A stretch of DNA of 49,514 bases from an uncultured Bacilli bacterium (GTDB lineage Bacteria; Bacillota_I; Bacilli_A; RF39; UBA660): assembly GCA_947624505.1 (NCBI GenBank), contig CANQKO010000007.1, positions 1 to 49,514 on the forward strand, read 5' to 3'. Shown in pieces: positions 28,433-41,806 of the stretch (position 1 is its first letter; each line of letters opens with the position of its first letter). The notes under the pieces were generated by a model. The model was not told the DNA's origin. It did no database searches and saw only the letters and a list, made by a program, of their open reading frames with translations. The translations under genes and the position numbers were made by a program.

Positions 28433-29508
28433 TCTTTCACCTCAAATATAAATCCTTTCGTATTAACTTTTAAGTCGGCATAAACATTAACTTTGGCTTT
28501 TGTCCATAAATCTTTATTTTCTTTACGCGTTTTTTTATAATAAATATCTTGTAATCCTAAAACATCACTTTCATCTTCTTGAAGAATATGGATAAAATTA
28601 GTTACTTTTTCTGCAATTATTTTGGCAAAATCTTCATTAATTATTTTATAAGTTTGCTGATCCTTTAAATCTAGGTTAGCATTATTTTCTATAACCCGAC
28701 CTTTTAAATTTAAATTAATATTTATTTTATCTTTTAAAACTTCAATATTAGTATCTGATGCAGTAATTGAAATATCAAAATTTTTCCCATTATATTTTTT
28801 ATTAAATGAAATACTAAAAGTATTTTGGGTTAATAAGTTATATAAAGAAGAATCCATTAAAGATAATTCACTTTTCTTTTTATAACCATTAAAAGTATAG
28901 AAATTACTTAAAGTTATTTCATCATTTTCATTAATAGTTAAACTACTTATAATGGCATCACTAGAATTACTAATTAATTTAGTTAAAAATACTTGATAAG
29001 TATCGATAACGGCTAAATTATTATTATATTTTTCATTATTAATAAGATTCATTATAAAATCACTTACTACGGGCATATTATCGCTATTGTGTTCTAAGAT
29101 TTCTTTGGGAGTTACATCTTTTACCGCAAGAGGAATAAATTCATCTCTAATCGCGGTATCCCTGATAAGATAATCACTTATTTTATCTAAATGATTATTA
29201 ATAATATTTTCAGAATACAAAACAATTCTTAAATGCGCAAAATAAGGTTTTTTACCAACTTTATAGTTAGTATCGGTAAATGCTTCAGGTAAAGTTTTAC
29301 CTTTACCACTTATGGTATAGCTTTTCATTGTGGTATTTTGTTCAGTTTTAATATCATTTAATATTTCATAAGTTAAATAATAATTATTATCTTGATAATC
29401 AATACCTATTCCGGAAATAATCGCTAAATTATTTAGTTCAATATTATCATAACAGCCACTTAAACAAAATAGAAAAATAATTAAAATTGTAAATTTAAAT
29501 ATTTTCAT
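28429..29508 (-). CDS. gerAC: Spore germination lipoprotein (Ger(x)C family)
   Basis: Lipoprotein subunit of the germinant receptor, displayed on the outer face of the inner spore membrane. The signal peptide ends in the lipobox FLFCLSGCYDNIELNNL, with Cys19 as the lipidated residue. The W/YD.IELN segment just after it is typical of GerAC proteins. The 359-residue length and C-terminal domain with an EDESDVLGLQ segment fit the family. Four-base overlaps join it to the gerAA-like gene upstream and the gerAB-like gene downstream. Confidence 0.92.
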   Translation of the reverse strand: MKIFKFTILIIFLFCLSGCYDNIELNNLAIISGIGIDYQDNNYYLTYEILNDIKTEQNTTMKSYTISGKGKTLPEAFTDTNYKVGKKPYFAHLRIVLYSENIINNHLDKISDYLIRDTAIRDEFIPLAVKDVTPKEILEHNSDNMPVVSDFIMNLINNEKYNNNLAVIDTYQVFLTKLISNSSDAIISSLTINENDEITLSNFYTFNGYKKKSELSLMDSSLYNLLTQNTFSISFNKKYNGKNFDISITASDTNIEVLKDKININLNLKGRVIENNANLDLKDQQTYKIINEDFAKIIAEKVTNFIHILQEDESDVLGLQDIYYKKTRKENKDLWTKAKVNVYADLKVNTKGFIFEVKE

Positions 29509-30917
29509 TCAAATTTTCCTCTCGTTAAATTATCACTTGTTAATAATTCACTTCGTTTAGTATTCTTTGTATCTTTTCTTTTTAAAATAGTTTTAAAAAA
29601 GTATGCTTTATTAAATGGAGCAATCGGGGCAAAATAAGGGTTATTTAAACTTCTTATCGAAATAACATTAATAAGGAAGAAAACAGTAGCTAAAAAGATT
29701 CCATATAAGCCAAAAAAGGAAGCAAAGAATAAAAATAGATAACGATAATATCTTAAAGCATTACTAATTTCTAAGTCCGAAAATATTAAACTAGTAATAA
29801 AAGTAAATGAGGCAATAATAATGGCAATAGGAGAAACGAGTCCCGCATTAACGGCAGCCTCCCCAATTATTAAGGCACCCAGAATAGAAATAGCGGAACC
29901 AAAGTTAGAAGGAAATCGTAAATCACTTTCTCTTAAAATATCACAAATGATTAAAAGCATAATAACTTCAATAATGGACGGAAAAGGAACGCCACTTCGC
30001 TGGGTACTAATATTAACAAGTAAACTAGCAGGAATAGTTTCCTGATTATAATTAATAATAGCTATATATATTCCTGGAGTTACCATCGATAAGCCAAAAC
30101 AAATAGCCCTTAATATTTTAATAAAAGCAACATTAATACTTTTAACATAATTATCACTGACGGGATTAATATAATCAGCTAAAAAAGTTGGTAAAATAAT
30201 AGCAAAAGGAGATGTATCCATTAGAATAACAATTTTCCCTTCAAGAAGAGAGGTTGCCACTAAATCAGGGCGTTCCGTTCTTTTAATGGTTGGAAAAACC
30301 GTTTTGTTTTCGCTTTCCAAATAATTAACAATAGTTCCTAAATCAATAACACCATCAACATCAATGGAATCTAATTTTTCTTTAATAACTTTTACGTCAC
30401 TGGTTTTAGCAATATTATCAATATAATTAATACTTAAAGTAGTTAAGGTATCTCTTCCCATTACAATTTCTTCGCTTTTTAAATGATGGGTTTTAATTCT
30501 TCTTTTAATAAGTCCCATATTAGTTTGATAATTTTCCACAAAAGAATCTTCGGGTCCTAATAAAGATGGCTCTCTTAAAGCTTGGCTGACCGCTCTTTGT
30601 AAATCACCCCGTACTTCAATAGCTAGGATATCTTTATCTAAAATAACAATGGCAAAACCATTAGTAATATAAAATTCAATCTTATCGTAATTATCCAAAG
30701 GAACGGTATTAGAACCTGGGGTATTACTATTTAAATTTAATTTAGAGTTATATCTCGTTAAATGTTTTAAAATATAATCATTTATTTTATCACCAGAACA
30801 AACGGTTTCAATAAAACAAACATAAATAGTTTTTTTTAGACCAATCTTTATTTCTTTTATTTTAAAATCAGGTACATTAGTAAACTCATCTTTTAATCTA
30901 GCCACAATGGGATTCAA
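29505..30917 (-). CDS. gerAA: Spore germination protein GerAA-like
   Basis: Receptor A subunit. The soluble N-terminal part (to about residue 250) contains the family core ERPDLVATSLLEGKIVILMD, followed by about five to six transmembrane helices (about 260-425) and a Lys/Arg-rich cytosolic tail. The start is placed at the TTG at 30917, because AAGGTGATA lies just upstream on the minus strand; an upstream TTG at 30971 has no SD and would add 18 residues. 470 aa. A TTGTCA, 16 bases, TATTAT pair lies upstream on the minus strand; a forespore sigma-G promoter could also fit the region but cannot be confirmed by eye. Confidence 0.92.
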   Translation of the reverse strand: MNPIVARLKDEFTNVPDFKIKEIKIGLKKTIYVCFIETVCSGDKINDYILKHLTRYNSKLNLNSNTPGSNTVPLDNYDKIEFYITNGFAIVILDKDILAIEVRGDLQRAVSQALREPSLLGPEDSFVENYQTNMGLIKRRIKTHHLKSEEIVMGRDTLTTLSINYIDNIAKTSDVKVIKEKLDSIDVDGVIDLGTIVNYLESENKTVFPTIKRTERPDLVATSLLEGKIVILMDTSPFAIILPTFLADYINPVSDNYVKSINVAFIKILRAICFGLSMVTPGIYIAIINYNQETIPASLLVNISTQRSGVPFPSIIEVIMLLIICDILRESDLRFPSNFGSAISILGALIIGEAAVNAGLVSPIAIIIASFTFITSLIFSDLEISNALRYYRYLFLFFASFFGLYGIFLATVFFLINVISIRSLNNPYFAPIAPFNKAYFFKTILKRKDTKNTKRSELLTSDNLTRGKFE

Positions 30918-30983
30918 TATTATCACCTTCAATTTATTTTTATTATTGACAATATTTACCAAATAATACAAATATAATTTAAT

Positions 30984-31390: not shown

Positions 31391-31424
31391 AGAGTAGAGT
31401 ATTTTGAAAAGGGGGAATTTTCTT

Positions 31425-33239
31425 ATGATAAAAAAAGCGAAAATCGAATTTAAAAGAGGAATTGCTTGTCTTTTAGCGACTCTTCAAATTGGGGTAATTT
31501 CTAGTTGTAATACTCAAGACTTTGATACAGTAGTTATTTCCAAAGAAGAATATGAAAAATTATTAGATGAATTAAAAACCCAAAAAATGGAAAATAATGG
31601 ATTAAATCTTGAAGTAGAAATTTTAAAAGATGCTCTACAAGCTGAAATAAATAAAAAGAATGAAGAAGATAAGGAGAAAGAAGATAGCAATATTAACGAA
31701 GATACTTCTACGGAACCTATAGATGATCCGGAAAAACCTATTTTTGATGAAGAACTAGCTAATAAAATTGGCATAACTAGTGAAATGGATGAAAATGAAG
31801 ACCTTAAAAAATGCTTAGATGAATTTAATAATTATCTAAGTTTACACACTTACCTTATTTATAAATATGAAAATAAAGATGGCATTCAAAAGATTCAATT
31901 TATAATGAATGATGAAGTAGTTGGAGAAGTTTGGACTTGTAAAGAAACTACAACATCTGTAAACTTTGTTTATAATAAACCGGAATATCAATATATTAAT
32001 AGTTTACATTTAGGAAATGAAGATAATAAGGTTTATAAAACCAGTTATGATTATAAATGGTCATATGAAGGTAATGAGTATGATATAGGTAGTAGCTCTA
32101 TTAATTATGATACGACTGAAGGAAGTATTTATAATTTATCTCTTGATTTTAATATCTTTGATAATAATACTAATGAAGATAAATTATTTATCTATCTTTC
32201 TAAAAATGTTGATGGATCCTTTACAATCGATTTAAATAGTAAAAATTCTCTATACATTCCAAGTGATAGTGAACACACTACACTTAACATATCATCAGAA
32301 GATTTCCAAATTTTAGATAAATTAATTTTATCTTATAAAGAAAAAGGAAAATTGGAAAATATCTTAGCATATTGCCAAGATACATTAATTGAGATAATTA
32401 AAAAATATGATGTCGAAGAGAAGTGTGAACAATATATTAATATTATAAAAAATAATAGTAAAGTTAAAAATGAAGAAATAGATAAAGATGTTAGTAATTC
32501 TAATCATCTTACCTTTAATCAAGAACTTGCTAATATTATTGGTCTAAGTAATGAGGTTTTAGAAAATTCTGTTGTTCAAAAAAATATTAATTTATTAAAT
32601 ATTTACTTAGGAAATTATGACAATTTATCTTATCAAAATAAAATTAGTGAAACATCTAATGATATTACTTTTATAGATAGTGATAATAAAGAAGTAGCAA
32701 GAGTTATTTTATTACAATCCTCACCATCATTGTTTATTACATTGTATGGGACAAATTATAATTCTATTTATTCGGTTATGCTTGATGAAAATAATGAAGT
32801 CGATTATTCAGCTGATGGCTTAAGTTGGGATTATAATGATGAAAATTATTCAGTTGGTGATAGTTATAGTTTCTATGATGCCAATTATACTTATACATCA
32901 TATATTGATTATGTTCATTTTGGGACTGATTCTTCAATTGATAGAGAATTTAGTGTTTGGTTAAATAAAGATGCTGATAACAATTATACTTTGAAACTTA
33001 ATAAAGATGTAACTCTTACAATTGAGGTTGATGATTTTTATAAGCTAACTGATTTAATAAATGCTTATGAAAATACTAATGAATATGGTAATATTTTTAA
33101 GTATTGTGGTAATGAAATAATAGAAATTATTCAAAAATATGATAGTGAAAATATATGTCAAGAATTTATTGATATTATCAAAGAAATCAAAGGTGATCTT
33201 GACAAGGAAAGATCTAGATATAAGGGGGAATTAAAATGA
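31425..33239 (+). CDS. Lipoprotein with two copies of a novel domain
   Basis: 604 residues. A signal peptide with lipobox IGVISSC (Cys near residue 26) predicts lipid anchoring to the membrane's outer face. A coiled-coil-like Glu/Lys segment follows (about 40-90). Two copies of an unrecognised domain of about 230 residues occupy about 105-345 and 365-600. Each begins with ELANxIG(I/L) and ends with (L/I)IEIIxKYD, then Cys and (Y/F)I(N/D)IIK. ATG 31425 is preceded by AGGGGGA; an upstream TTG at 31404 has none. It overlaps the next gene by four bases (ATGA). The second gene encodes one more copy of the same domain. Function unknown; extracellular binding is a guess. Confidence 0.8.
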   Translation: MIKKAKIEFKRGIACLLATLQIGVISSCNTQDFDTVVISKEEYEKLLDELKTQKMENNGLNLEVEILKDALQAEINKKNEEDKEKEDSNINEDTSTEPIDDPEKPIFDEELANKIGITSEMDENEDLKKCLDEFNNYLSLHTYLIYKYENKDGIQKIQFIMNDEVVGEVWTCKETTTSVNFVYNKPEYQYINSLHLGNEDNKVYKTSYDYKWSYEGNEYDIGSSSINYDTTEGSIYNLSLDFNIFDNNTNEDKLFIYLSKNVDGSFTIDLNSKNSLYIPSDSEHTTLNISSEDFQILDKLILSYKEKGKLENILAYCQDTLIEIIKKYDVEEKCEQYINIIKNNSKVKNEEIDKDVSNSNHLTFNQELANIIGLSNEVLENSVVQKNINLLNIYLGNYDNLSYQNKISETSNDITFIDSDNKEVARVILLQSSPSLFITLYGTNYNSIYSVMLDENNEVDYSADGLSWDYNDENYSVGDSYSFYDANYTYTSYIDYVHFGTDSSIDREFSVWLNKDADNNYTLKLNKDVTLTIEVDDFYKLTDLINAYENTNEYGNIFKYCGNEIIEIIQKYDSENICQEFIDIIKEIKGDLDKERSRYKGELK

Positions 33240-34189
33240 TCGAAAAAAAGAAAATTAATTTTAAGAAAGGAATAGCTTGTCTTTTGGCCACTCTTCAAGT
33301 GGGGATAGTGACAAGTTGTGCTAAAAGTGATATTTCGGAAAAAGATTATGTTGATGCATCAGAATTTGTCACTACTTTAGAATTAGTAAGTAAAAGTGGT
33401 GATAATTTAAAAAATAAAAGCAAACTAGATACTTTAAGTAATGATTTAGTTAAAGAAGTTGGCTTAACAGAAGAAATGCTTAATGATCCTATGATTAAAG
33501 GTAATATTGCTAAACTAAATGGTTATATAGAAGAGTATAAAAAAGCTTATTTTAAACATAGTGATTTATACTATGTTGTAAAAGAAGGAGCTGAAGGAGA
33601 AAAGATTATTAGCGTCTTAAATTATCTAAATGTTGTCATTGGTAGTATAACTAAAACTAATGATTATGTTTATTTTAATTTTGATAGACCTTCAAGGGTT
33701 TATCTTGATGAACCGGAAGCATTAGAATTCAATTATAGGATGTTTTTATCAGATGACAGTATAGTCTATGATAAAGGATGGTATAATGAAGACTCAAAAT
33801 ATTCAGCTATTCATACGCATATATTTAAAGATGATGAAGTAAAAAAAGAATCAGAAGTAAATTATTATTCTAATAATAAACATCTTTTAAGATTTGCATT
33901 TATTAATAATGGTAAAGGTTCTTGTACATTTAAGTTAAGTGAAACTTCATATGATGATTACCATTTTGCTTATGAACCAACATCTTTCAAAATAACAGAA
34001 ACAGATTATCTAATTTTAGATAATTTATTAGAAAATCTAAAAAGAAGTGATGAATCTTTAGATATTTTAGATTATTTTAAAGATACCTTATTAGAAATAA
34101 TTCGAAAATATGACAAAGAAAAAGAATGCCAAAAATACATTGATATTATAAAAAATCAAAAGAAAATTATCACTTTAAATCGTAAGTAA
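33236..34189 (+). CDS. Lipoprotein paralogue with one copy of the same domain
   Basis: 317 residues. The signal segment INFKKGIACLLATLQVGIV with lipobox VTSC is nearly identical in layout to that of the preceding gene. One domain copy (about 65-315) begins DLVKEVGLTEEM and ends LLEIIRKYD, then CQKYIDIIKN. The start overlaps the stop of the first gene, so the two are translationally coupled and probably act together. The pair ends in a strong terminator. No known family was recognised. Confidence 0.8.
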   Translation: MIEKKKINFKKGIACLLATLQVGIVTSCAKSDISEKDYVDASEFVTTLELVSKSGDNLKNKSKLDTLSNDLVKEVGLTEEMLNDPMIKGNIAKLNGYIEEYKKAYFKHSDLYYVVKEGAEGEKIISVLNYLNVVIGSITKTNDYVYFNFDRPSRVYLDEPEALEFNYRMFLSDDSIVYDKGWYNEDSKYSAIHTHIFKDDEVKKESEVNYYSNNKHLLRFAFINNGKGSCTFKLSETSYDDYHFAYEPTSFKITETDYLILDNLLENLKRSDESLDILDYFKDTLLEIIRKYDKEKECQKYIDIIKNQKKIITLNRK

Positions 34190-36322: not shown

Positions 36323-36350
36323 ACTTGCTAGGTGAAGTATCGAGGTAGTT

Positions 36351-37844
36351 ATGATAAATGTAGTCGATTATTTAGAAAATAGTATTAATATTTATAAAAA
36401 TAAAATTGCTGTTATTGAAGAAGATAAAAAAATTACTTATGAATCTTTAGGATATTTAAGTAAATGTGTCGGTAGTTACATTGCTAAAAATCATTTTAAT
36501 GAGCCAATAATTGTTTTTATGGATAAAGGAATAGATACTTTAATTACTTTTTTAGGTACTGTTTATGCTGGGTGTTTTTATACCCTTATTAATCCTCTTT
36601 TACCAGAGGTAAGAATTAACCAAATAAAAGAGGTCATTAATTCAAAATTAGTTATTACTAATGAAGATTATTTTACCCTAGCTAGTAGTTATTTTAAAGA
36701 TTGTGAAGTTAAATTAATTAGTGATTTAAAAGAGGCAAAGATAAATGAAGATGTCTTACTTAATGCTTATCAAAATCATCTTGATGTTGATCCTTTATAT
36801 GTTAATTTTACCTCTGGTTCAACAGGGACACCTAAAGGAGTTGTAATATCCCATCGTTCCGTAATTGACTTTATCGATAATTTTACCAATATTTTTGCCT
36901 TTAAACAAAGTGATGTTATTGCCAATCAAGCACCCTTTGATTTTGATGTTTCGGTAAAAGATATTTATTCTTCCCTAAAGGTAGGAGCAACTTTAGTAAT
37001 TGTGCCCAAAAAATATTTTTCCAGTCCGGCTTCTTTACTTGATTATTTATGTGATAATAAAGTAACTACTTTAACCTGGGCCGTTTCGGCACTATGTTTA
37101 ATTACGACTTTTCACGGTCTTGATTATAAAGTACCTACGACCATTGAAAAGGTTTTGTTTAGTGGGGAAGTAATGCCAATTAAGCATTTAAAAATGTGGA
37201 TGGAAAAATTACCTCAAACAACTTTTGTTAATTTGTATGGCCCAACTGAAATAACTTGTAATTGTCTTTATTATGTGATTGATCGAAATAAAGAGTATGA
37301 TAGCATTCCTATTGGCCGTCCTTTTCCCAATGAGAGAGTTTTTTTGCTAAATGACAAGGGCAACATTATAAAAAGTAAAAGTACGATTGGCGAAGTTTGT
37401 GTAAGTGGAACTTGCGTTGGTCTTGGTTATTATAATAATGAAGAAGTAACTAAAAAGAATTTTGTTTTTAATAATAAAAATTATTTAGAACTTATTTATA
37501 AAACTGGTGATTTAGCTTATTTAGATGAAGATGATAATTATGTTTTTGTGGGAAGAAAAGATTTTCAAATTAAATATCAAGGCCACCGGATTGAATTAGA
37601 AGAAATCGATAAAGCAGTAATGAATATTGCGGGTGTTATTCGCTCTTGTACCATCTTTGATTCAGAAAAAGAAAGACTATATACTTTTTTTGTAGGAGAT
37701 TTAGATAAAGATATAATTACTTCAAATTTAAGAAAAGTATTACCAACTTATATGATCCCTTCAAAAATAATTAAAGTAGATGTAATGCCTTTAACAAAAA
37801 ATGGAAAAATAGACCGTTCAAAACTAAAAGAAGGGGTGAAGTAA
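36351..37844 (+). CDS. dltA: DltA-like amino-acid adenylation enzyme
   Basis: Activates an amino acid as the adenylate and loads it on the carrier protein encoded at 39007. Adenylation-domain motifs are complete: FTSGSTGTPKG (153-163), PFDFDVSVKD (195-204, with the Asp that binds the substrate amino group), NLYGPTE (294-300), TGDLAY, GRKDFQIKYQGHRIELEE and the catalytic Lys in NGKIDR near the end. Overall it is closest to D-alanine-carrier ligase DltA. In the loop VLFSGEVMP (268-276), Ser271 stands where B. subtilis and B. cereus DltA have Cys (FCGE), a residue reported to matter for D-alanine selection. With a decarboxylase gene next, the substrate may not be D-Ala. First gene of a five-gene operon; no dltX is seen upstream. 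Confidence 0.85.
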   Translation: MINVVDYLENSINIYKNKIAVIEEDKKITYESLGYLSKCVGSYIAKNHFNEPIIVFMDKGIDTLITFLGTVYAGCFYTLINPLLPEVRINQIKEVINSKLVITNEDYFTLASSYFKDCEVKLISDLKEAKINEDVLLNAYQNHLDVDPLYVNFTSGSTGTPKGVVISHRSVIDFIDNFTNIFAFKQSDVIANQAPFDFDVSVKDIYSSLKVGATLVIVPKKYFSSPASLLDYLCDNKVTTLTWAVSALCLITTFHGLDYKVPTTIEKVLFSGEVMPIKHLKMWMEKLPQTTFVNLYGPTEITCNCLYYVIDRNKEYDSIPIGRPFPNERVFLLNDKGNIIKSKSTIGEVCVSGTCVGLGYYNNEEVTKKNFVFNNKNYLELIYKTGDLAYLDEDDNYVFVGRKDFQIKYQGHRIELEEIDKAVMNIAGVIRSCTIFDSEKERLYTFFVGDLDKDIITSNLRKVLPTYMIPSKIIKVDVMPLTKNGKIDRSKLKEGVK

Positions 37845-37845
37845 A

Positions 37846-39000
37846 ATGGATGTCAAAAAAATTATAAATACATATGGAACACCTAGCTTTATTTTTGATA
37901 TAGATGCCTTAACTAAAAGAATTGCTTATTTAAAAAGTAAGTTATCATTTGATTTAGTTTATGCCGTTAAAGCCAATAGTTTTATTGTTAAAGACTTAAA
38001 AGATTTAGTTTTAAGATATGAAATTTGTTCACCTGGGGAATATGAGATATGTGAAAAACTAAGTATACCTGAGAGGATGATGGTTATCTCTGGTGTTTAT
38101 AAAGAAGAAACAGTAATCGAAGAAATGATTAAGAATAAAGATATTTTAAAATATACAGTTGAATCAATGAATCAATTTATTCTTCTTGATAAGTTAGCTA
38201 CTAAGTATCAGAAAAAAATTCATTTATTATTAAGATTAACTTCGAATAATCAATTTGGAATGACTAAAGAAGAAATTAAATATATTATAGAAAATCACAA
38301 AAGAGATTATTTAATAATTGATGGCCTAGAATATTTTTCCGGTACCCAAAAGCATAATCTTAATCTAATTAATAAAGAAATAGATAATATAAAGGAATTT
38401 ATTTTAGATATTGAAAATAATTTACATTTTCCGATTAATGAATTAGAATATGGACCGGGAGCACCCGTTTATTATTTTCAAGATAATGAGTTTTTAGAAG
38501 ATGAATTTCTAGATAATTTAAATAATAGTTTAAAAAAAATTAATAAAAAAGTCACTTTAGAAATTGGTCGTAGTATTGCTGCATCGTGTGGAACTTATTT
38601 AACTAAAGTAGTTGATTTAAAAACTAATAAAAGTGGTGATTTTGCTATATTAGATGGAGGTATTAATCATTTAGTTTATTATGGTCAGATGATGGCAATG
38701 AAAGTTCCTTATTTTGATTTAATAAGAGAAAAAGAAGAAAATGAAGATATTATCTATAATTTATGTGGATCTTTATGCACTATTAATGATATAATAGTTA
38801 AAAACTTAACATTAAAGAAGTTAAATATAGGTGATGTTTTTGCTTTTAAAAATGTGGGAGCATATTCCATCACGGAAGGTATTGCTTTATTCTTAAGTAG
38901 AGATTTACCGAAAGTTATATTATATAAAAATAATAAATGTTATTTAGTAAGAGATACATATAAAACAAGTAATTTAAATTTTCCAAATGTAGAGGAGTAG
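37846..39000 (+). CDS. PLP-dependent fold-III decarboxylase in the dlt-like operon
   Basis: Member of the diaminopimelate/ornithine decarboxylase superfamily. The PLP lysine is Lys42 in YAVKAN. EIGRSIAAS (239-247) corresponds to the phosphate-binding EPGRS. GSLCTINDI (308-316) supplies the catalytic Cys311 and substrate-binding Asp315. GAYS (338-341) gives the conserved Tyr340. The usual His-x-Gly-Ser motif that stacks on PLP reads YFSGTQ, so the substrate site differs from LysA. At 384 aa it is complete. ATG follows the dltA stop by one base. In butirosin synthesis, BtrK of this family decarboxylates a glutamyl group held on a carrier protein; a similar on-carrier role is an inference here. 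Confidence 0.82.
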   Translation: MDVKKIINTYGTPSFIFDIDALTKRIAYLKSKLSFDLVYAVKANSFIVKDLKDLVLRYEICSPGEYEICEKLSIPERMMVISGVYKEETVIEEMIKNKDILKYTVESMNQFILLDKLATKYQKKIHLLLRLTSNNQFGMTKEEIKYIIENHKRDYLIIDGLEYFSGTQKHNLNLINKEIDNIKEFILDIENNLHFPINELEYGPGAPVYYFQDNEFLEDEFLDNLNNSLKKINKKVTLEIGRSIAASCGTYLTKVVDLKTNKSGDFAILDGGINHLVYYGQMMAMKVPYFDLIREKEENEDIIYNLCGSLCTINDIIVKNLTLKKLNIGDVFAFKNVGAYSITEGIALFLSRDLPKVILYKNNKCYLVRDTYKTSNLNFPNVEE

Positions 39001-39006
39001 TGATTT

Positions 39007-39237
39007 ATGGAAAAGTTAATAAATATTTTAGAAGATTTACATCCGGGAGTTGATTATAATAATTGTGATAATTTAGTTGATGCAAGAATTCTTGATTCTT
39101 TAACTATTTTATCTTTAATTAGTGAAATAGAAGATAATTTTGATGTTACCATTCCTACAGTCGAAATAATTCCCGCTAATTTTAATTCAGCTCAAAAAAT
39201 ATATGAATTAATTGTGAGGTTACAAGAGGAAGAATAA
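39007..39237 (+). CDS. dltC: DltC-like carrier protein
   Basis: 76-residue acyl/aminoacyl carrier. The phosphopantetheine attachment is Ser31 in ILDSLTILSL, followed by the acidic helix EIEDNFDVTIP typical of DltC. It would accept the amino acid activated by the 36351 product. SD GAGGAG precedes its ATG. Its stop overlaps the MBOAT start (TAATG). Its small size and context support DltC over the fatty-acid ACP. Confidence 0.9.
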   Translation: MEKLINILEDLHPGVDYNNCDNLVDARILDSLTILSLISEIEDNFDVTIPTVEIIPANFNSAQKIYELIVRLQEEE

Positions 39238-40823
39238 TGTCTTATTTTAGTGTTATCTATTTTTTAGTATTTTTACCTATTGTTATTGTTATCTATAATA
39301 TATTACCTAAAAAAATAAGACCGATTATTCTTCTTATAGCTAGTGTATTTTTCTTCTTTACTTATAGTAAATGGTTAATAATCTTTTTACTTTTATCAAG
39401 TATATCTATTTATTTAGCTGGTTATTTTTTAAATAAATTAAATGTTGAAAAAAATAATATAAGTAAAGATTTATTAATAGAAGAAAAAAAGTTACTTAAA
39501 GAAAAATATAAAAGAAAGAAAAAGATTGTTTTAATAATAACTATTTTATTTAATACAGCCTTTTTATTTTATTTTAAATATTTAGGTTTCTTTAAAAATG
39601 TCTTAAATAATCTTCTTAGTTTATTTAAAATAAAGGGTAGTTTAAAAATAGTTAAACATTTAGCCCCGATTGGGATATCTTTTTATACTTTATCGGCAAT
39701 ATCATATATAGTAGATGTCTATAATGAAAAGTATGAATATGAAAGTAACCCTTTAAAATTAATATTATATTTATTATTTTTTCCAACTTTAGTTGAAGGA
39801 CCAATTACAAAATATAATGATGTTAAAGATGATTTATTTAAAGGAAGTAAAGTAACTTATCAAAGTTTTTGTTTTGGTTATCAAAGAATATTATTTGGCT
39901 TATTTAAAAAAATGGTTATTGCTGATCGTTTAAATATTTTTGTTAAAATGGTTTTTAACTATTATGCTAGTTTTCCAGGACCAATAGTTTTTCTAGGAGC
40001 TATTTTCTATACTATATTACTTTATATGGAATTTTCCGGAACAATGGATATTGTTATTGGTAGTGCCCAAATATTTGATATTAAGATTAAAGAAAACTTT
40101 CGCGAGCCTTTTTTCTCTAAAAATATTTCCGAGTTTTGGAGTAGATGGCATATTTCTTTAGGTAATTTTTTTAAAGATTATATTTTTTATCCTGTATCAT
40201 TATCTAAGGGGGTTAAAAAAATTACTAGTAAGATTAAAACGCACTTAGGAATAAAAGTATCATCTTTGGTAATGGGGGCAATTTCTTTATTTGCGGTTTG
40301 GTCTTTAAATGGTTTATGGCACGGTGCGGGGTATCAATACTTATTCTTTGGTTATTATCATTTTACTTTAATTCTTCTTGGTAATATCTTTGAACCCTTA
40401 ATAGTTAAATTATATAATAAATTAAAAATTAATAGAGATAGTAAAATTATAGTGTTTTTCCGGATTATTAAAACTTGTATCTTAATCTTTATTGGCGAAA
40501 TGTTCTTTAGAGCTAATAGCCTTAAAAGTGGATTACTTATGATGAAGGTAATTATTACTAATTTTACTTTTAAGGGATTTAAACATTTGGTATTAACGCT
40601 TGGTCTAGATATCAAAGATTATATTATTATTGGTCTTTCTTTAATCTTTATTTTAATTATAAGTATTTTAAAAGAAAAAAATATTGAAGTAAGAGAAAGT
40701 TTAAGTAAGAAAAATATTGTTTTAAGATGGTTATGCTACTATGCTTTAATTATAAGTATTATTGTTTTTGGAGCCTATGGAGAAGGGTATGCTCCAGTCG
40801 AACCAATCTATGCAGATTTTTAG
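39237..40823 (+). CDS. dltB: MBOAT O-acyltransferase, AlgI/DltB-like
   Basis: Polytopic membrane transferase that moves an acyl or aminoacyl group from carrier to an extracellular polymer. About ten to twelve hydrophobic segments, with the MBOAT signature WSRWHISLGNFFKDYIFYP and the catalytic His in LWHGAGYQYLFFG. At 528 aa it is longer than DltB (about 400). The N-terminus (SVIYFLVFLPIVIVIYNILP) resembles AlgI/PatA-type polysaccharide O-acyltransferases more than classic DltB. A basic cytosolic insertion (about 75-100) is present. The operon is therefore a mix of Dlt and AlgI-like parts. The symbol dltB marks functional position only. Confidence 0.85.
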   Translation: MSYFSVIYFLVFLPIVIVIYNILPKKIRPIILLIASVFFFFTYSKWLIIFLLLSSISIYLAGYFLNKLNVEKNNISKDLLIEEKKLLKEKYKRKKKIVLIITILFNTAFLFYFKYLGFFKNVLNNLLSLFKIKGSLKIVKHLAPIGISFYTLSAISYIVDVYNEKYEYESNPLKLILYLLFFPTLVEGPITKYNDVKDDLFKGSKVTYQSFCFGYQRILFGLFKKMVIADRLNIFVKMVFNYYASFPGPIVFLGAIFYTILLYMEFSGTMDIVIGSAQIFDIKIKENFREPFFSKNISEFWSRWHISLGNFFKDYIFYPVSLSKGVKKITSKIKTHLGIKVSSLVMGAISLFAVWSLNGLWHGAGYQYLFFGYYHFTLILLGNIFEPLIVKLYNKLKINRDSKIIVFFRIIKTCILIFIGEMFFRANSLKSGLLMMKVIITNFTFKGFKHLVLTLGLDIKDYIIIGLSLIFILIISILKEKNIEVRESLSKKNIVLRWLCYYALIISIIVFGAYGEGYAPVEPIYADF

Positions 40824-40832
40824 GGTGATAGA

Positions 40833-41774
40833 ATGAAGAATGTGTTAAAAAGTATTTTATTTATAGTTATATTATTTATTCTTATCTCAGGTATAACTTA
40901 TTTATTATTACCAAAAGAAAACTTAAAGAAATATGGTTTAATTAAAACTTCTACTTATGAAATATTAGGTGAAAAAGAAAATTCAATTGATGCCATTATA
41001 ATTGGTGATAGTTTAATTTATTCTGGAGTGTCTCCAATGGAGATATGGCATAATTTTGGTTATACAGTTTTTGATATGGCTAAAAGTGCTCAGTTAATCA
41101 ATGATTCTTATAAATATTTTGAAGTAGCTATTAAAAGTCAAAAACCTAAAATAATATTTTTTGAAAGTAATGTATTATATCGTGAGGCTAAAAATAAACC
41201 TTGGTTTTATGTTTGGCAAGAATTATATAAAACTTATTTTCCTATAATTAATTATCATAATAATTGGAAGAAATATTTATTTACTAATCTAAATGATTCA
41301 GTATATTATAGTAAATTAAATGCTTATAAAGGATTTAAATATATTAATAAAACCAAACCAGGGAAAAAATTAGATTATATGAAAGAAAGAGAAGAAATAA
41401 AAGTGCCTTTAGAAAACTTAAAATATTTTGATAAAATAGTTAAGTTATGTAATAGTAATGATGTTAAGTTAATTTTAATTAGTACTCCCAATATGAAAAG
41501 TTGGAATTATGGTAAATATTTGGGAACTAAAGAATTAGCTCATAATTATCAGTTAGAATATATTGATTTAAATATTAATAATCCTTTAAATATAGATTGG
41601 CAAACAGAATCAAGAGATGCTGGGAGTCATCTAAATTATAAGGGAGCATTAAAATTATCTAATTATTTAGGTGAATATTTAAAGAAAACTAATTTATTTG
41701 TTGATAAAAGAAATGATGATGATTATAATTCTTGGAATGAAGCATATGATTTATATATTGAATTATTAAAATAA
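40833..41774 (+). CDS. Membrane-anchored SGNH hydrolase-like protein (DltD/AlgX position)
   Basis: One N-terminal transmembrane helix (about 5-26), then an extracellular SGNH-fold domain. The nucleophile is Ser60 in IIIGDSLIYSG, and the C-terminal block DAGSHLNYKGA gives Asp262 and His266. At 313 aa it is shorter than DltD (about 400), and resembles accessory esterase/transferase proteins that work with MBOAT partners. It probably completes transfer of the group delivered by the MBOAT protein onto a wall polymer. Starts 9 bases after the MBOAT stop and ends in a bidirectional terminator. Confidence 0.82.
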   Translation: MKNVLKSILFIVILFILISGITYLLLPKENLKKYGLIKTSTYEILGEKENSIDAIIIGDSLIYSGVSPMEIWHNFGYTVFDMAKSAQLINDSYKYFEVAIKSQKPKIIFFESNVLYREAKNKPWFYVWQELYKTYFPIINYHNNWKKYLFTNLNDSVYYSKLNAYKGFKYINKTKPGKKLDYMKEREEIKVPLENLKYFDKIVKLCNSNDVKLILISTPNMKSWNYGKYLGTKELAHNYQLEYIDLNINNPLNIDWQTESRDAGSHLNYKGALKLSNYLGEYLKKTNLFVDKRNDDDYNSWNEAYDLYIELLK

Positions 41775-41806
41775 AAAAGTATTGGGATTTTTTCCTAATA
41801 CTTTTA
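41774..41806. terminator. Bidirectional terminator
   Basis: AAAAAGTATTGGGA (41774-41787) pairs with TCCTAATACTTTT (41793-41805), one G-U, over a T-rich loop. T tracts follow on both strands, serving the dlt-like operon and the convergent phosphohexomutase gene. Confidence 0.85.

Follow-up and report, generated by a model that had tools for sequence, protein, structure and literature searches.

A Dlt-like cassette with a pyridoxal phosphate decarboxylase: a candidate route to omega-amino acyl groups on the envelope of an uncultured Bacilli bacterium

Related systems and the five-gene cassette

D-alanylation sets the surface charge of Gram-positive bacteria and affects their tolerance to antimicrobial peptides and their recognition by the immune system. 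The dlt operon (dltXABCD) combines ATP-dependent loading of an amino acid onto a small stand-alone carrier protein with an MBOAT acyltransferase and an SGNH protein. The same parts are encoded by the locus described here, five genes at positions 36,351–41,774 of a 49,514-nucleotide stretch of DNA (the window) from an uncultured Bacilli bacterium; the host genome, to which the window belongs as contig 7, amounts to 1.23 Mb in 60 contigs and is 94.6% complete. However, this cassette has an extra gene for a fold-type III pyridoxal phosphate (PLP) decarboxylase (DC), its order is adenylation enzyme (A), DC, acyl carrier protein (ACP), MBOAT, SGNH instead of the A-MBOAT-ACP order of dlt, and the shuttle tyrosine, found on DltX in dlt, lies on the MBOAT itself. 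The presence of DC within a Dlt-like cassette indicates that an omega-amino acid, beta-alanine or 4-aminobutyrate (GABA), is probably attached to the cell surface. We consider the chances roughly even that this carrier pathway decorates an envelope polymer with a beta-alanyl or 4-aminobutyryl group derived from Asp or Glu; all chemistry of the proposed pathway is inferred from sequence. A literature search returned no report on this operon.

Several other described systems share parts of this arrangement. In butirosin synthesis, BtrI/BtrJ/BtrK also unite a carrier with a fold-III decarboxylase that has the GxLCTxxD loop and the DGGxxH segment, but their product enters an antibiotic and not an MBOAT-SGNH pair. 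The butirosin carrier is, to our knowledge, not loaded by a DltA-like A enzyme. An A enzyme, a PLP decarboxylase and a stand-alone ACP are likewise combined in VinN/VinO/VinL, FlvN-FlvO and BolO/BolN/BolC (PMC11284099, PMC7756342), although there the product serves to build a polyketide or peptide, and VinN-like A enzymes, with a shortened loop containing KR, share only 21% identity with the cassette A. Decarboxylation on the carrier has precedents in BtrK, VinO and, as proposed, BolN (PMC11284099, PMC7756342, PMC7857480). On a plasmid of Streptomyces sp. S501 (L191:5971-10883), a BtrK-like PLP enzyme, a holo-ACP synthase, a hotdog protein, a VinN-type A enzyme and a carrier directly adjoin ectoine synthase and ectA, while at locus L192 a VinO-like protein adjoins methylaspartate mutase and a polyketide synthase. 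The exosortase-A-associated families TIGR03098/TIGR03099 also place an AMP ligase next to a PLP decarboxylase with the LCT motif in envelope polysaccharide loci, represented here by Sinorhizobium pSymB (L193:4316-7131). The ligase of that locus is of the VinN type with a short FR loop, no MBOAT-SGNH pair was seen there, and the NCBIfam cut-offs of both families are missed by the cassette proteins; the sequence suggests that this ligase, too, may activate an amino diacid. Finally, PatA/PatB and AlgI/AlgJ pair an SGNH protein with an MBOAT that carries a C-terminal YxxF acyl-shuttle motif; these and other MBOAT-SGNH systems draw on acyl-CoA and have no carrier protein, with acetyl as the group moved by the two named pairs (PMC12148441), whereas the cassette would be expected to transfer an amino acyl group from a carrier protein.

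The cassette is not a canonical dlt operon, since every curated cut-off is missed: A scores 289.3 bits with DltA TIGR01734 (cut-off 559.85), the MBOAT 117.5 bits with DltB TIGR04091 (375) and the ACP, in which the carrier serine is present, 20.1 bits with DltC TIGR01688 (52.35). Because the D-Ala pocket is also absent (DVKTLSLCNK in A versus DLMILCTVAK in the annotated DltA of L190), the cassette is filed as a Dlt/MBOAT-SGNH variant. A scan of genome contigs revealed 32 loci in Bacilli, Erysipelotrichaceae, Lachnospiraceae, Ruminococcaceae and others. The A-DC-ACP-MBOAT-SGNH order occurs in at least 27 loci with all five genes on the contig, with gaps that are mostly tiny or replaced by overlaps, and a few loci have MBOAT-SGNH upstream of A-DC-ACP. 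Identity to the window proteins is 44–70% for A and 39–75% for DC in most loci. The recurrence of the same order in 27 loci places the gene packing far from chance, and chance adjacency of the five genes was rejected. This conserved order and the strict coupling of DC to one A-pocket code (see below) bear out the claim of an earlier note on this DNA that the decarboxylase belongs to the pathway; the neighbourhood survey proposed there, for co-occurrence of DC with the A/MBOAT set, was run and shows that the cassette recurs as a unit. The description of the operon as a hybrid was misleading, as it is an old cassette spread across Bacilli and Clostridia and a branch of a larger Dlt-like A-ACP-MBOAT-SGNH set. 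Pairwise protein distances correlate at 0.75–0.78 among A, DC and ACP and at 0.90 between MBOAT and SGNH, which fits a loading trio and a transfer pair.

Decarboxylase, pocket code and predicted chemistry

The adenylation enzyme (36351..37844, + strand, 497 amino acids, Pfam AMP-binding 9.5e-59) has DltA and nonribosomal peptide synthetase A domains as its closest families. Its predicted fold (pLDDT 88) has GrsA, PltF and DltA as top PDB matches, generic A domains that cannot discriminate among A types. The pocket residues, taken at GrsA positions 235, 236, 239, 278, 299, 301, 322, 330, 331 and 517, are D199, V200, K203, T242, L269, S271, L295, C303, N304 and K486. The pattern D V K (T/I/V) (L/I/M/A) S (L/V/I) C N K is found in all DC-linked A enzymes except that of L064. 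Positions 235, 236, 239, 301, 330 and 331, i.e., six of the nine pocket-code positions when Lys517 is not counted, do not vary at all (100%) among 34 A proteins, most of which share about 47–70% identity with the A of the window, against a background of 17.5% of all columns in the same set. When loci were collected by A only, DC adjoined 9/9 A enzymes with the DVKxxSxCNK pocket and 0/46 others; over all fetched loci DC stands beside 24/24 A enzymes with this pocket and 0/50 without it, a table that overstates independence because part of the loci were fetched by DC itself. In the A tree all 51 DC-linked enzymes form one clade (SH-aLRT 95) nested among DC-less A-ACP-MBOAT-SGNH cassettes, and therefore DC was gained once, together with the pocket change, and then kept; no loss was observed.

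Two divergent loci (L064:6231-11720 and L066:89-1552) form a second branch with the order A-ACP-DC and the pocket IARGCSQASK, which lacks Asp235. An A homologue with 53% identity (H46, MT836540.1 9810-11219) was also noticed among unannotated records from human faeces labelled ‘Bacteriophage sp.’, which may be bacterial contigs.

DC (37846..39000, + strand, 384 amino acids) starts after a 1-base gap. It matches the Orn/DAP/Arg decarboxylase Pfam models (1.4e-15 and 2.8e-11) and, weakly, alanine racemase (5.9e-4), and contains the PLP lysine K42, R242, YYGQMMAMK at 278–286 and the catalytic-loop sequence GSLCTIND with C311 and D315. The residues K42 and R242, the motifs DGG(I/M), YYGQMMAMK and G(S/A)LCTxxD, and others are kept in 36–38 of 38 DC sequences, and Cys311 and Asp315 in all 38; the catalytic set of fold-III decarboxylases, the lysine and the cysteine loop, is thus conserved. 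In agreement with the likeness to BtrK proposed earlier, DC resembles BtrK over LysA at the diagnostic motifs. The GxLCTxxD motif, in place of which LysA has CES/CET, is that of decarboxylases encoded beside carrier proteins, and DC has it in common with BtrK, the VinO-like protein of L192, the TIGR03099 protein of L193 and two other Streptomyces proteins. The DC family profile gives 189 bits for BtrK, 197 for the L191 enzyme and 193 for that of L193 versus 111–171 for LysA. In trees DC is a clade of its own (100/100) apart from LysA; no supported sister of DC and no supported placement of BtrK emerged from them.

A different role would follow if DC were the diaminopimelate decarboxylase LysA making lysine, either for lysylation of the polymer or as a housekeeping lysA that happens to lie in the operon. 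The top PDB matches of DC by sequence are LysA proteins, its predicted fold (pLDDT 87) matches LysA and BtrK equally well (TM 0.85 for BtrK 7ru7), and family searches, on which all genome-wide statements about the host rest, found no LysA-like gene besides DC in the host genome. However, DC scores 157.4 bits with LysA TIGR01048, about half of the curated 297.9, and the glutamate of the CES/CET motif and the arginine and tyrosine of the IRPxxY segment are lost in all members of the DC family; the LysA reading was rejected on these grounds. Moreover, a relative of the same taxonomic family (L031) encodes a true LysA over the cut-off elsewhere, in a different context, and the association of DC with A and ACP holds in two classes. 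We regard this explanation as highly improbable.

PLP decarboxylation takes the carboxylate off the amine-bearing carbon. When the alpha-carboxyl is itself tied up in the thioester, this reaction is impossible on the carrier, and the logic of BtrK and VinO hence requires activation of the side-chain carboxyl, a constraint missed in the earlier note. In the proposed pathway, A and ATP would activate Asp or Glu by the side-chain carboxyl and load it onto the phosphopantetheine of ACP, as the invariant D235, K239, S301 and N331 suggest; D235 would hold the amine and a basic residue, plausibly K239, the alpha-carboxylate. In VinN, the alpha-carboxylate is held by Ser299 and Arg331 (PMC7756342). 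On the carrier, the free alpha-amine would then be bound by DC as an aldimine and the alpha-carboxylate lost, a step to which the motif and context of DC point; Asp would end as beta-alanyl-ACP and Glu as 4-aminobutyryl-ACP. Asp and Glu are both candidates, as no pocket codes for their side-chain activation were found in the literature searched; V236 and S301 appear to favour Asp slightly.

Alternatively, DC may act before A, making beta-alanine or GABA from free Asp or Glu, respectively, so that A loads the finished product and the carrier never holds a diacid. IdnL3 decarboxylates free beta-glutamate ahead of adenylation (PMC11284099), and residues V236 and S301 have the bulk seen in A domains for beta-amino acids, e.g., F231/S299 of VinN and the engineered A236V of TycA (PMC11253843). 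On the other hand, the invariant basic K239 suits a second carboxylate, absent in both beta-alanine and GABA, and the LCT motif is common to enzymes encoded beside carrier proteins, which makes the free-substrate order unlikely in our view. DC might also have another activity. It might, for instance, epimerise the carrier-bound residue, giving a D-aminoacyl group, or turn an aspartyl thioester linked through its alpha-carboxyl into alanyl-ACP by beta-decarboxylation. In favour of this, A has the fold of ordinary enzymes for alpha-amino acids, whose products, once on the carrier, cannot chemically undergo alpha-decarboxylation; alanine racemase, weakly matched by DC, is also a fold-III enzyme. 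Nevertheless, the retention of the decarboxylase-loop Cys311 and Asp315 throughout the family argues against such activities, we know of no fold-III beta-decarboxylase, and we judge them very unlikely.

Several observations weigh against side-chain activation of Asp or Glu followed by decarboxylation on the carrier and transfer to a polymer. K239 is present in DC-less cassettes too (DAKCAGLGMK, DAKLTALVDK) and by itself is no proof of side-chain activation; its use as sole proof of an iso-linked diacid was dropped. A keeps a normal-length GPTEITCNC loop, whereas in the VinN-like enzyme of L192 the loop is shortened to TEAKR with R331. Among the features of VinN-type enzymes (PMC11253843), A thus has Asp235 with bulky 236 and 301 (D, V and S are invariant) and not the shortened beta13-beta14 loop with basic 330/331, and a VinN-type mechanism copied whole was rejected. 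On the DC profile, one LysA outscores the VinO-like protein of L192 (171 versus 156 bits). The single gain of DC on the A tree means that its coupling to the pocket reflects one origin and long retention, and the acceptor polymer is putative. The earlier reading is strengthened, not proven.

Transfer to the envelope and host context

The carrier gene (39007..39237, + strand, 76 amino acids, Pfam PP-binding 1.2e-4) begins 6 bases after DC and has its phosphopantetheine serine S31 in LDSL. It overlaps by one base the MBOAT gene (39237..40823, + strand, 528 amino acids, Pfam MBOAT 1.3e-10), whose product has a catalytic-type H362 (WHG) and a C-terminal acyl-shuttle motif PIYADF with Y525. This tyrosine and the last Phe (F528) are kept in 35/36 sequences, the exception (L050) being an assembly gap. 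The MBOAT is AlgI-like, as had been claimed, or AlgI/PatA-like, with a shuttle tyrosine of its own. In PatA and DltX a C-terminal tyrosine takes the acyl group over to the serine of the SGNH protein (PMC12148441). With the PIYADF tail as an acyl-Tyr shuttle from MBOAT to SGNH, the lack of DltX is accounted for. The fifth gene (40833..41774, + strand, 313 amino acids) follows after 9 bases and encodes an SGNH/DltD-like membrane-anchored protein. It has no Pfam or NCBIfam match and is assigned by GDS and D262/H266, which its relatives retain as SGNH/DltD-like proteins do. The marks of an MBOAT-SGNH pair, i.e., the MBOAT His, the C-terminal Tyr motif and the SGNH Ser-Asp-His triad, are thus present in the cassette, the triad being less clear in proteins of the L046/L057/L061 type. 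The MBOAT would move the acyl group onto the tyrosine of its own PIYADF tail, as the motif suggests, and the SGNH protein would hand it to an extracellular polymer, possibly similar to lipoteichoic acid in this host.

The group may, however, end up on a lipid, on a surface protein or on a small molecule that is secreted. Across 33 loci the flanks share no constant gene, and in particular none for polymer biosynthesis, and the two LtaS-fold proteins of the host are both under the LtaS cut-off. Nonetheless, characterised MBOAT-SGNH pairs with the shuttle motif act on envelope polymers (PMC12148441), and the host has, besides its LtaS-fold proteins, two LCP wall-polymer ligase-like proteins; a non-polymer acceptor is in our opinion decidedly unlikely. 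Among the families that flank the cassette, AcpS-type transferases and two-component regulators are the most frequent. In seven relatives an AcpS-type (holo-ACP synthase) gene lies convergently and directly past the SGNH gene; these transferases are the open reading frames of 115–123 amino acids, and the reading of neighbours of 200–220 amino acids as phosphopantetheinyl transferases was wrong. AcpS genes beside the cassette fit a pathway that needs a primed carrier, and the host genome has one AcpS-type phosphopantetheinyl transferase.

The host has no DltA at 1e-100 and none over the curated cut-off, and therefore a substitute for D-alanine is plausible. Its three other AMP-binding proteins do not have a DltA or amino-acid A-domain model as best match. 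A second MBOAT-SGNH pair of the host (L033:5441-7826, contig 2 of G000) is located in a cluster with glycosyltransferases and wecB, with no carrier or A seen nearby.

As the earlier note had described, the five open reading frames span 36351–41774 on the + strand and are tightly packed, with measured gaps of 1, 6 and 9 bases and a 1-base overlap. A ribosome-binding-like GAGG (36342..36345, + strand), read from the sequence, lies 5 bases upstream of the A start codon, and a promoter scan gave no more signal than shuffled sequence. A terminator-like stem-loop (41775..41805, + strand; a 13-pair stem with a T-rich tail) begins right after the SGNH stop and separates the operon from a convergent phosphomannomutase gene, and therefore the operon is most simply these five genes. 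Elsewhere in the window, 31404-33239 and 33236-34189 encode two lipoprotein-like paralogues in tandem whose signal segments (KKGIACLLATLQVGI...SC) are nearly identical, and 29505-30971 (minus strand) encodes what by eye appears to be a GerA/SpoVAF-type spore germination protein in this 1.2 Mb genome.

Distribution and significance

A DC with 98% identity is found in a metagenome-assembled genome of an uncultured Bacilli bacterium (L037). DC matches at 1e-15 occur in 13/288 genomes of the order, with about 11 orthologues, and at 1e-60 in 16/395 genomes of the class, and A orthologues of at least 779 bits in 10/341 genomes of a Clostridia sample. Other stand-alone A enzymes in A-ACP-MBOAT-SGNH cassettes have different codes and no DC, and some share a genome with a DC cassette. 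Such DC-less cassettes are widespread in Clostridia (L147-L161, L164, L166, L135), and their pocket code, DAKCAGLGMK, hardly varies; codes also seen are SM(L/S)YLALDIK (without Asp235), DIFFWALLDK and DAKLTALVDK. In L170, L172 and L173 a tandem pair of A genes with the codes DNFFVCLDVK and DNFFLAMDIK lies upstream of a single ACP-MBOAT-SGNH set. The multiple codes suggest a palette of Dlt-like aminoacylation systems, and since each Dlt-like cassette has a fixed A-pocket code, each presumably has its own amino acid.

The cassette joins three separately known mechanisms: decarboxylation on the carrier, a carrier-fed MBOAT and the acyl-Tyr tail of an MBOAT. No earlier description of envelope decoration with beta-alanine or GABA was found in the literature searched. 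That an ester of one of these omega-amino acids, made on a carrier from Asp or Glu, is widespread on envelope polymers of gut Firmicutes seems to us about as probable as its opposite. The cassette occurs in cultured gut bacteria, among them Massilimicrobiota sp. An134 and Cuneatibacter sp. NSJ-177, which makes the prediction directly testable. If true, a beta-alanyl or GABA ester would give the same positive charge without D-alanine and, as its chemistry implies, should exceed an alpha-aminoacyl ester in chemical stability. The sister cassettes without DC point to a range of aminoacyl groups on clostridial envelopes that is chemically broader than D-alanine.

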